Assembly (NCBI GenBank): GCA_009886095.1
Contig: VFJL01000009.1
Coordinates: forward strand, 1 to 64,000
DNA: 64,000 bases
DNA from: Nitrosomonadales bacterium
Lineage (GTDB): Bacteria > Pseudomonadota > Gammaproteobacteria > Burkholderiales > Nitrosomonadaceae
Direction: 5' to 3'
Positions 882 through 3,736 of this stretch are shown piece after piece. Made by a program: the position numbers and the translations under genes. The notes under the pieces are model-generated. The model searched no databases and was not told the origin of the DNA. It worked only from the letters and a program-made list of their open reading frames with translations. How positions within the stretch are numbered: position 1 is the first letter of the stretch; every line of letters starts with the position of its first letter.

Positions 882-2063
882 CTACAACCCCCTCAACCCT
901 CTTGCCAAATCCGCTTTGATATCTTGCACCGCTTCCAATCCCACCGCGATGCGCAACAGGCCTTCGGTGATACCCGCCGCATCCCGTGCTTCCTGACTAA
1001 TACGGGCGTGGGTGGTGCTGGCAGGATGAGTAAGCGTACTCTTGGTATCACCCAGATTGGCGGTGATCGAAATCAGACGAGCGGAGTCCACCACCTGCCA
1101 CGCCGCTTCTTTTCCACCCTTCATTTCAAATGAAACGATGCCGCCACCAGTTTTCTGTTGACGCCGGGCAAGCTCGTACTGCGGATGCGACGCTAAGCCG
1201 GGATAATAGACTCGCGCCACATTTGGCTGCACCTCCAGCCAGCGGGCAATTTCCATGGCATTAGTAGAATGAGCCTCCATGCGGATTTTTAGGGTTTCCA
1301 TTCCCTTCAGGATTACCCAGGCATTGAATGCGCTCAGAGTTGGGCCAGCAGTACGCAAGAAGCCATGCACCCCTTTTTCCATCACCAGCTCGCGTTTCCC
1401 CAGTACTGCGCCACCCAGCACCCTACCCTGACCATCAAGATACTTGGTAGCAGAGTGGATCACTAGGTCGGCGCCCAGTTCCAGCGGCCTTTGCAGTATC
1501 GGCGAACAGAAACAGTTGTCAACCGCAAGCCACGCCCCAGTTTTTCTCGCAACTATAGCCAGCGCTGCGATGTCGGAAATTTCAGTAAGCGGGTTTGACG
1601 GGGTTTCTACAAAGAAAAGTTTTGTGTTGGTTTTTACTGCCGCCTGCCATGCTGCAACATCGGTGGCTGAAACAAACGTGGTCTCAATGCCGAAACGTTT
1701 GAGGATATTGTTAAACAAGTTTACCGTGGCACCAAACAGGCTGCGTGAAGCGATAACATGATCCCCTGCAGAGAGCAATCCCATTACGCAGGCAAGTATT
1801 GCCGACATGCCGGAAGAAGTGGCAACGCAGGCCTCCGCTCCCTCCAGTGCGGCAAGTCGTTCCTCAAAAGCAGTAACCGTAGGATTGGTGAAACGCGAAT
1901 ATATATTTCCAGGTTCCGCGCCGGAAAATCGTGCGGCAGCTTGGGCGGCACTATCAAACACATAGCTTGAGGTAAGATACAAAGCCTCGGAGTGCTCATT
2001 GAATTGACTGCGGTGAATGCCTGTATGGATCGCCAGCGTTTCCAGTTCAAAATCGTCAGACAT
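882..2063 (-). CDS. metZ: O-succinylhomoserine sulfhydrylase (PLP-dependent)
   Basis: Makes homocysteine from O-succinylhomoserine and sulfide in methionine synthesis; cytosolic Cys/Met-metabolism PLP enzyme. The 393-residue length is normal. PLP-binding features are visible: the ATSSGMSA loop near residue 81, VDNCFCSP near 181, and the Schiff-base lysine in SATKYLDGQGR (K207). The start ATG at 2063 follows a purine-rich GGAGAGGG stretch. It lies downstream of purF in the usual betaproteobacterial order but has its own promoter and a SAM-II-like leader with terminator in the 152-bp gap, so it is probably transcribed separately and repressed by S-adenosylmethionine. MetZ rather than MetB or MetC is favoured by overall sequence feel and by the met-type riboswitch; a cystathionine gamma-synthase activity cannot be excluded. 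Confidence 0.92.
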   Translation of the reverse strand: MSDDFELETLAIHTGIHRSQFNEHSEALYLTSSYVFDSAAQAAARFSGAEPGNIYSRFTNPTVTAFEERLAALEGAEACVATSSGMSAILACVMGLLSAGDHVIASRSLFGATVNLFNNILKRFGIETTFVSATDVAAWQAAVKTNTKLFFVETPSNPLTEISDIAALAIVARKTGAWLAVDNCFCSPILQRPLELGADLVIHSATKYLDGQGRVLGGAVLGKRELVMEKGVHGFLRTAGPTLSAFNAWVILKGMETLKIRMEAHSTNAMEIARWLEVQPNVARVYYPGLASHPQYELARRQQKTGGGIVSFEMKGGKEAAWQVVDSARLISITANLGDTKSTLTHPASTTHARISQEARDAAGITEGLLRIAVGLEAVQDIKADLARGLRGL

Positions 2064-2083
2064 GGGAGACCCTCTCCAAATAA

Positions 2084-2117
2084 AAAAACCCGTTCAGCTT
2101 TTGCTAAAACGGGTTCC
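2084..2117 (-). terminator. Intrinsic terminator in the metZ leader (expression platform)
   Basis: On the minus strand AACCCGTTTTAGC, loop AAAA, GCTGAACGGGTT forms a 12-bp stem (one bulge, one G-U) followed at once by seven T. It ends about 20 bases before the metZ start codon, so it stops transcription before metZ instead of simply ending purF. The 5' arm contains TTTAGC (2103-2108), complementary to GCTAAA (2124-2129) in the 3' strand of the preceding aptamer, giving a mutually exclusive antiterminator pairing. Confidence 0.85.
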
Positions 2118-2174
2118 CCACGCTTTAGCTGTATTTATAACGCGCCCGCAAGCTGAATATCAAATCGGCGCACA
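2115..2174 (-). ncRNA. SAM-II (metA-motif) riboswitch-like aptamer upstream of metZ
   Basis: The minus strand reads GCGCCGATTT, a loop containing CAGCTTGC, then GGGCGCGTTATAAATACAGC and GCTAAAGCG. P1 is GCGCC with GGCGC; the loop AGCT can pair with the downstream AGCT to give the H-type pseudoknot. The order CGC-GATTT, GCGCG, T-ATAAAT, AGCTAAA matches the SAM-II consensus as I remember it from alphaproteobacterial metA/metX leaders. The predicted transcription start (about 2173) falls at the 5' edge of the aptamer. SAM-II binds S-adenosylmethionine and shuts off methionine genes. Folding and covariance were not run. Confidence 0.82.
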
Positions 2175-2179
2175 ATCAC

Positions 2180-2208
2180 AAATTACACTTGGTAAATATT
2201 TTTGTCAA
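2180..2208 (-). promoter_or_regulatory. Sigma-70 promoter of metZ
   Basis: TTGACA (2203-2208), 17-base spacer, TAATTT (2180-2185) on the minus strand, immediately after the purF stop. The -35 is perfect, the -10 is moderate. Initiation about seven bases downstream would start the RNA at the riboswitch aptamer. Confidence 0.65.
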
Positions 2209-2215
2209 ATCGCTG

Positions 2216-3736
2216 TTAGTCTGCTGCCACCAAATTCAAGTCCAGTTGCGTGCTGGATCTGGCTTGCGCTAAGGCAAGGCCACCATTGCGTTGCGCCTCA
2301 ATAATAGCCAGGTATTCTGGCGTAACATCACCAGTGATGTAATTACCATCGAAACAGGAAGTCTCATAACGTGTAATGGATGGATTGACCCGGCACACAT
2401 CTTTCTTGAGGGAGTCGAGATCCTGGTAAACAAGATGATCCGCGCCGATCTCTCGGCAAATATCATCGTCATTGCGTCCGGTGGCAATCAGTTCCTGGCG
2501 CGTTGGCATATCAATCCCATAGACATTTGGAAATCGCACTGGCGGTGCGGCTGAAGCAAAATACACTTTGTGCGCCCCGGCTTCCTGCGCCATTTGTACA
2601 ATTTCTCGGCTGGTCGTGCCGCGCACAATGGAGTCATCCACCAATAATACGTTCTTACCACGGAATTCCACACTCATAGCATTGAGCTTCTGCCGCACCG
2701 ATTTACGCCGCTGCTGCTGTCCTGGCATGATAAAAGTACGGCCAATGTAACGATTCTTGACGAAACCCTCGCGAAAATTTAGCCCCAGGCGGTTGGCAAG
2801 CTGCAAGGCACTGGGACGACTGGAATCAGGAATTGGAATTACCACATCAATATCTAGATGCCGCATGGTCTTGGTGATTTTATCGGCCAGACTCTCACCC
2901 ATGTTCAGCCGTGTTTCGTATACTGAAATACCATCCATTACCGAATCGGGACGCGCCAGATAGACATACTCGAAAATACATGGGTTAAGCGTAGGGTTAA
3001 TGGCGCATTGTTTGCTATGGAAATTACCATTCTCATCAATAAAAACCGCCTCTCCCGGTGCAATATCACGTACCAGTTTGAACCCAAGTGTATCAAGCGC
3101 TACGCTCTCAGATGCTACCAGATACTCAATCCCATGCTCGGTATCGGCACAGCCAAATACTAGCGGGCGGATACCGTAGGGATCACGAAAGGCTAGCAAC
3201 CCATAACCTGCGATCATTGCCACTACTGCGTAGGCACCACGGCAACGCCGGTGTACACCGGCAACCGCAGCAAAAATAGCGGCAGGATCAAGCTGATGGT
3301 TTTTCGTACTCCTTTGCAACTCATGTGCAAGTACATTGAGCAACACCTCAGAATCGGAATTGGTATTGACGTGACGTAGGTCTTCACGAAACAACTCCTG
3401 GTTGAGTTGTGCTGCATTGGTGAGATTACCGTTGTGTCCCAATACGATGCCAAACGGCGAATTTACGTAAAATGGTTGGGCCTCGGCACTAGATTCGGCA
3501 GAGCCAGCGGTCGGGTAGCGCACATGGGCAATACCCATATTGCCAGCCAGCGCACGCATGTTACGAGTTCTAAATACATCCCGAACCAAACCTCCACCTT
3601 TTTGCATGTGGAAAGTATTGCCCTGCGCAGTAACTATGCCAGCAGCATCCTGTCCACGATGCTGCAATACCAACAGCCCGTCATAAAGCAGCTGGTTGGC
3701 AGGCGATTGCGCGACTACACCCAGAATTCCACACAT
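2216..3736 (-). CDS. purF: Amidophosphoribosyltransferase
   Basis: First committed step of purine synthesis: glutamine plus PRPP to 5-phosphoribosylamine. The protein begins [10 protein letters not shown], so removal of Met exposes the N-terminal nucleophile cysteine of the class II glutaminase domain (about residues 2-235). The C-terminal phosphoribosyltransferase half carries the PRPP loop [16 protein letters not shown] near residue 365. Length 506 is normal. There is no long propeptide before Cys, and no iron-sulfur cysteine set of the Bacillus type is obvious, which fits the E. coli-like class. It follows cvpA by 129 bases, the classical cvpA-purF pairing. Confidence 0.96.

Follow-up and report, generated by a model that had tools for sequence, protein, structure and literature searches.

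A SAM-II riboswitch predicted to control metZ by transcription termination in a Nitrosospira-like bacterium, and its probable identity with the metXZ and Bp2_287 elements

Promoters lying only a few nucleotides ahead of the P1 helix, and terminators in many SAM-II leaders, those of Bordetella included, were noted by Corbino et al. in 2005, and coupling of SAM-II to a terminator was proposed in that work (PMC1273637). In 2007 this coupling was named the most frequent SAM-II arrangement in alpha- and betaproteobacteria (PMC2258182), and Huang and Lilley (2018) state that the majority of SAM-II riboswitches are transcriptional (PMC6061858). A predicted transcription terminator was described in the SAM-II leader of Sinorhizobium meliloti metZ by Scheuer et al. 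(2022), along with a terminated small RNA (sRNA) of about 100 nt (PMC9373788). The first-pass annotation of the DNA analyzed here had taken SAM-II riboswitches to be usually translational, a view that PMC6061858 contradicts. It had also presented as new a betaproteobacterial, terminator-coupled SAM-II whose RNA starts at the aptamer edge, an arrangement already in print (PMC1273637, PMC2258182, PMC9373788). The metZ locus described below adds a member to a known SAM-II type; the switch itself is not new, and taken alone such a locus is routine annotation.

Two other descriptions concern loci of this kind. Leyn et al. (2014) place SAM_alpha (the Rfam SAM-II family, RF00521) only in Rhizobiales and Rhodobacterales. 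They report as new an RNA element of betaproteobacteria, metXZ, which has a pseudoknot, a terminator and a ligand given as unknown, and name Nitrosospira multiformis metZ (PMC4239095). A cis-acting methionine element had already been suggested by Khoo et al. (PMC3521395) in connection with the RNA named Bp2_287.

The window, i.e., the whole 64,000-nucleotide stretch analyzed, contains a purF-metZ interval which, on comparative sequence evidence, we consider to be a SAM-II riboswitch that turns metZ off at the level of transcription, with a probability of about 0.9.

The purF-metZ leader and its promoter

The interval measures 152 nt and lies on the minus strand between the purF stop codon (ending at 2216) and the metZ ATG (2063). 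The flanking genes were assigned as PurF and MetZ from NCBIfam models. The features are as follows.

2216-3736, minus strand: purF, upstream neighbor co-oriented with metZ (TIGR01134, 528 bits); synteny conserved throughout the family
2203-2208, minus strand: -35 hexamer TTGACA
2180-2185, minus strand: -10-like hexamer TAATTT, after a 17-nt spacer
2141-2172, minus strand: P1 hairpin of the SAM-II aptamer (RF00521 alignment; compensatory changes in P1)
2172-2167, minus strand: P1 5′ strand UGCGCC, pairing with the P1 3′ strand GGCGCG at 2146-2141
2166-2161, minus strand: U-rich third strand GAUUUG (RF00521 alignment)
2155-2148, minus strand: P2 5′ strand CAGCUUGC (RF00521 alignment)
2121-2129, minus strand: P2 3′ strand and SAM-binding core GCUAAAGCG, also the putative antiterminator 5′ arm; invariant in 30 relatives except for its eighth base
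2103-2111, minus strand: anti-core CGUUUUAGC, putative antiterminator 3′ arm that also lies within the 5′ arm of the terminator (pairing with the core; motif recurs in relatives)
2087-2115, minus strand: intrinsic terminator hairpin AACCCGU(U)UUAGC-AAAA-GCUGAACGGGUU
2082-2088, minus strand: U7 tract of the terminator (from sequence)
882-2063, minus strand: metZ, O-succinylhomoserine sulfhydrylase, the controlled gene (NF006003, 719 bits, and TIGR01325, 598 bits, both above cut-off)

Read along the minus strand, the leader presents in order TTGACA, TAATTT, the P1 5′ strand, GAUUUG, CAGCUUGC, the P1 3′ strand, UUAUAAAUACA, GCUAAAGCG, the terminator with its U7 tract, the Shine-Dalgarno region and metZ. 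Promoter, aptamer and terminator, all described at first pass, were each recovered at the positions listed above. The promoter had been called perfect at both hexamers. This holds for the -35 element, while the -10 element matches the consensus at 3 of 6 positions, so that a perfect sigma-70 promoter was rejected. Of 98 distinct leaders, 49 have an exact TTGACA ahead of the aptamer, usually at the same distance from it, and in most of the relatives' leaders that carry it TAnnnT follows after 17-18 nt. Such conserved spacing makes it very likely that the RNA begins within a few nucleotides of P1, with a predicted start adjoining P1 at about 2173 (± 2). A generic promoter and terminator scan listed neither this promoter nor this terminator.

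The host genome is that of a Nitrosospira/Nitrosovibrio-like member of the Nitrosomonadaceae, the closest named MetZ (98% identical) being that of Nitrosovibrio sp. Nv4 isolate MsH-01oct19-150, and named Nitrosospira species keep the leader element in their own, orthologous intervals between purF and metZ. Immediately 5′ of the metZ ATG, a 5-bp hairpin (GGAGA-GGG-UCUCC, 2065-2077, minus strand) covers the Shine-Dalgarno region; short inverted repeats of this kind are present in several close relatives and absent from others. Adjoining the metZ 3′ end, disrupted reading frames that include a winged helix-turn-helix (PF13592) at 72-735 on the minus strand look like a decayed IS630-type transposase.

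Assignment of the aptamer

The leader aligns with RF00521 over the full length of the model at 32.1 bits (E 1.6e-5), short of the gathering cut-off of 36 bits, which is a search threshold and not a structural feature. An Rfam scan of the entire window at gathering thresholds returned no match; by itself, this null result would lead one to dismiss the finding wrongly. The first-pass annotation had named the lack of a covariance hit above threshold as grounds for refutation. The score does fall below the threshold, and the threshold undercalls the betaproteobacterial members: a covariance model trained on 30 relatives only (R1) has matches in 227 genomes out of 300 from the window's order, against 51 with RF00521 above cut-off and 142 in which E 0.01 is reached. 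Most SAM-II leaders of this order are thus left unannotated by the Rfam cut-off. In a search of 61 genomes of relatives, RF00521 gave matches in 37, four of them above cut-off; two of these four are orthologous metZ leaders from the window's own family (L009 and L010 in our numbering of loci, 38.3 and 36.6 bits).

P1 shows compensatory changes in five of its six pairs: 49 cells are doubly changed where shuffles gave 8.4, and none of 500 shuffles was as high, in an alignment (A2) that was itself fitted to the P1 of R1. The pairs of P2, which in SAM-II is an H-type pseudoknot joining the P1 loop to the 3′ tail, are formed in 94% of cells and the inner four never vary, hence the absence of a covariation signal in either direction. 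The nucleotides of the binding core (the U's of the third strand, UUGC and GCUAAA) agree with the Rfam consensus and are invariant in the 30 relatives. Across the whole window the core pattern has a single occurrence, which is on the minus strand. As a single sequence the leader folds unexceptionally (z -1.4), as expected of two competing hairpins and a pseudoknot. Outside the window's class R1 finds nine loci, each scored by RF00521 at 59-79 bits. Since a model built from relatives reaches known SAM-II aptamers of other classes as well, the element belongs to SAM-II by homology in spite of its sub-threshold single-sequence score. The SAM-II likeness noticed at first pass is thus supported by the RF00521 E-value, by R1 homology and by P1 covariation. 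Within the host genome the next RF00521 match has an E-value of only 0.2 and R1 gives one site, so that no second SAM-II was found there. Weak Rfam matches to SSRC10, rli56, Trp_leader, RybB and MIR319 were set aside as chance-level or trivial terminator resemblances.

We infer that SAM is the ligand of the metZ leader; residue-level contacts would be those argued, by analogy, from the SAM-V paper (PMC6061858). A relative of the SAM-II fold that senses another ligand, e.g., S-adenosylhomocysteine (SAH), is very improbable. The beta members do constitute a distinct sequence group with low scores under the alphaproteobacterial model; yet the strands that hold SAM in SAM-II and SAM-V are unchanged here and the controlled genes produce methionine and SAM. 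As for SAH, the window's genome contains one separate SAH riboswitch that scores above its own cut-off.

Terminator, antiterminator and the proposed switch

The core (2121-2129) has two alternative partners, the P2 strand at 2148-2155 and the anti-core at 2103-2111. Complementarity between GCTAAA and TTTAGC had been pointed out at first pass; in the RNA, GCUAAA (2129-2124) can indeed pair with UUUAGC (2108-2103), as part of nine continuous pairs with the core; two more (CC/GG) bring the antiterminator to 11 bp. When the segment downstream was shuffled 200,000 times, a 9-bp anti-core arose in 167 cases. Antiterminator and terminator are mutually exclusive and their computed energies are equal (-15.3 kcal/mol each, from nested folding that ignores pseudoknots, SAM and kinetics). 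When folding was computed on the growing chain, the antiterminator had a probability of 1.00 right after its own 3′ arm, ahead of the terminator 3′ arm, and the terminator a probability of 0.94 upon completion of its own 3′ arm. With the antiterminator favored early and the terminator later, SAM would act by keeping the core strand within the aptamer during transcription of the anti-core.

Terminators were detected in 75 of 88 distinct leaders of relatives. Of the 19 same-family leaders with a terminator, 16 have the anti-core motif TTT[AG]G[CT] ahead of the U-tract (0.16 expected in shuffles), as do 27 of the 56 other terminator-bearing leaders (0.89 expected), whereas leaders without a detected terminator have it at chance level (1 of 13, 0.54 expected). 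Although these shuffles retain nothing beyond base composition, and related sequences do not count as independent, the effect is large and spread across several families. In several leaders (L064, L065, L077 and L086) the motif occupies the loop of the terminator, a position from which it does not contribute to that hairpin. The exact anti-core is missing from about half of the more distant leaders, which may switch through other pairings.

Coupling of the aptamer to the terminator through competition between core and anti-core, as read at first pass, is supported by the 11-bp pairing and by recurrence of the anti-core in relatives, and the mechanism that follows is well supported by comparison. 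The RNA would start at P1 or a few nucleotides before it. At low SAM, GCUAAAGCG (2129-2121) would be unoccupied as UUUAGC (2108-2103) emerges; the 11-bp antiterminator would form and polymerase would continue into metZ. With ample SAM, the ligand would keep GCUAAA within the P2 pseudoknot/triplex, leaving the anti-core to join the terminator (2115-2087), and transcription would stop at the U-tract after about 93 nt. By homology with SAM-II and SAM-V structures (PMC6061858), the core strand is expected to line the SAM pocket. Termination at the metZ leader would, on this scheme, depend on SAM. Some 93 nt from predicted start to termination, with the SAM pocket doubling as the antiterminator strand, make for a compact switch that would be handy for co-transcriptional folding studies.

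Alternatively, the aptamer could be a genuine SAM-II with the terminator outside its control, regulation being translational or exerted at the promoter. There is a precedent in the S. meliloti metA leader, for whose terminator no response to SAM is predicted (PMC9373788), and the small hairpin at 2077-2065 does span the Shine-Dalgarno region. We regard this arrangement as unlikely here. The 11-bp core/anti-core pairing, conserved in relatives, links the aptamer directly to the terminator; moreover, the terminator lies between aptamer and ribosome-binding site, which makes direct masking by P2 impossible.

Relatives and previously named elements

Among 80 named MetZ loci, the element is present in all 20 from Nitrosospira or Nitrosovibrio and in none of the 37 from Nitrosomonas (L124-L174 range). 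Nearly all of the latter retain purF-metZ adjacency, with a spacing of 16 nt in N. europaea, and the absence of the riboswitch looks like a clade-wide loss. One of the 20 copies, that of Nitrosospira briensis Nsp8 (L176), is interrupted: an insert of about 230 bp (L176:1196-1435) divides the aptamer, with the P1 3′ strand on one side and AAATTCGGCTAAAG on the other. The insert has inverted repeats, CCTGAATCC/GGATTCAGG, at its termini and is accompanied by a direct repeat, ATTAT. The riboswitch terminator of N. multiformis Nl12 is separated from metZ by about 150 bp of inserted, hairpin-rich sequence (L149:1320-1475).

SAM-II-type leaders also precede metH (L055, L062, L064, L065, L076), metX (L083-L089 range), metK (L069, L085, L090, L091, L093, L098, L102) and an ABC ATPase resembling methionine importers (L041, L096, L105), gene names here having been read from the protein sequences rather than obtained by family scan. 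The regulon in relatives is therefore broader than metZ alone, and its genes serve SAM and methionine supply. These locations also bear on the idea that the hairpin is a mere purF terminator and its likeness to an aptamer incidental. The hairpin does follow purF, with which it shares its strand, and may in addition halt read-through from that gene; however, the element stands before metX, metH and metK in other genomes, and most Nitrosomonas keep purF-metZ without it, making this reading hardly tenable. Seven loci (L011, L036, L043, L044, L078, L079, L080) carry tandem SAM-II-type aptamers, the first coupled to a terminator and the second often without a detected one. Tandem pairs were rejected as a novelty, 44 cases having been reported (PMC9481103).

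On the plus strand, positions 2083-2209 of the window match RF02424 (Bp2_287, "Burkholderia sRNA") at 32.3 bits, under the cut-off of 70 and on the strand opposite to aptamer and metZ. This match, together with RT-PCR detection of Burkholderia transcripts from such an interval (PMC3521395), could point to a trans-acting or antisense small RNA read from the plus strand. The probability of this is minimal, given that promoter, aptamer core, U-tract and gene all lie on the minus strand in the window, and that RF02424 matches run antisense to metZ and overlap an opposite-strand R1 match in all three loci above the RF02424 cut-off (L037, L038, L039). In those three loci the R1 match falls within the stretch matched by RF02424, and MetZ comes next on the strand of the R1 match. 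RF02424 thus models the strand complementary to a SAM-II/terminator leader of metZ, and the family appears to have been given the wrong orientation.

The N. multiformis metZ leaders (L146, L149, L158, L172) match R1 at 76.6-78.8 bits. Given these strong matches, what Leyn et al. (2014) presented as the metXZ element is very probably the betaproteobacterial SAM-II. A search of the open-licence literature found no paper equating either RF02424 or metXZ with SAM-II. We think it highly probable that metXZ and RF02424 are one RNA, a betaproteobacterial branch of SAM-II controlling metZ, metX, metH and metK. In this branch the antiterminator arm would be the very strand that binds SAM, and most members would be missed by current Rfam thresholds. 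Three labels, SAM_alpha, metXZ and Bp2_287, would thereby be tied to a single RNA.

Compared with SAM-II as modeled in RF00521, the locus shares P1, the pseudoknot strands, the GAUUUG/GCUUGC/GCUAAA core, a promoter adjoining P1, a leader terminator and a downstream met gene; it differs in that P1 and P2a are those of the betaproteobacterial subgroup, which scores below or near the Rfam cut-off. SAM-V (PMC6061858) has a near-identical SAM-binding core but possesses a P3 helix and acts on translation, and was not scored as a match here. Bp2_287 is of the same locus type and spans aptamer plus terminator upstream of metZ, although Rfam models the opposite strand and the Burkholderia members have extra insertions in the aptamer linker. 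With the metXZ element (PMC4239095) the leader shares lineage and gene, N. multiformis metZ included, as well as a pseudoknot and a terminator; that paper calls the element new and does not recognize it as SAM_alpha, and the two are very probably one RNA. Finally, the S. meliloti metZ leader and its RZ sRNA (PMC9373788) offer the same gene, a predicted SAM-dependent terminator and a terminated RNA of about 100 nt; that leader is alphaproteobacterial in sequence and its terminated RNA has been seen, whereas the termination product of the present locus is a predicted one.
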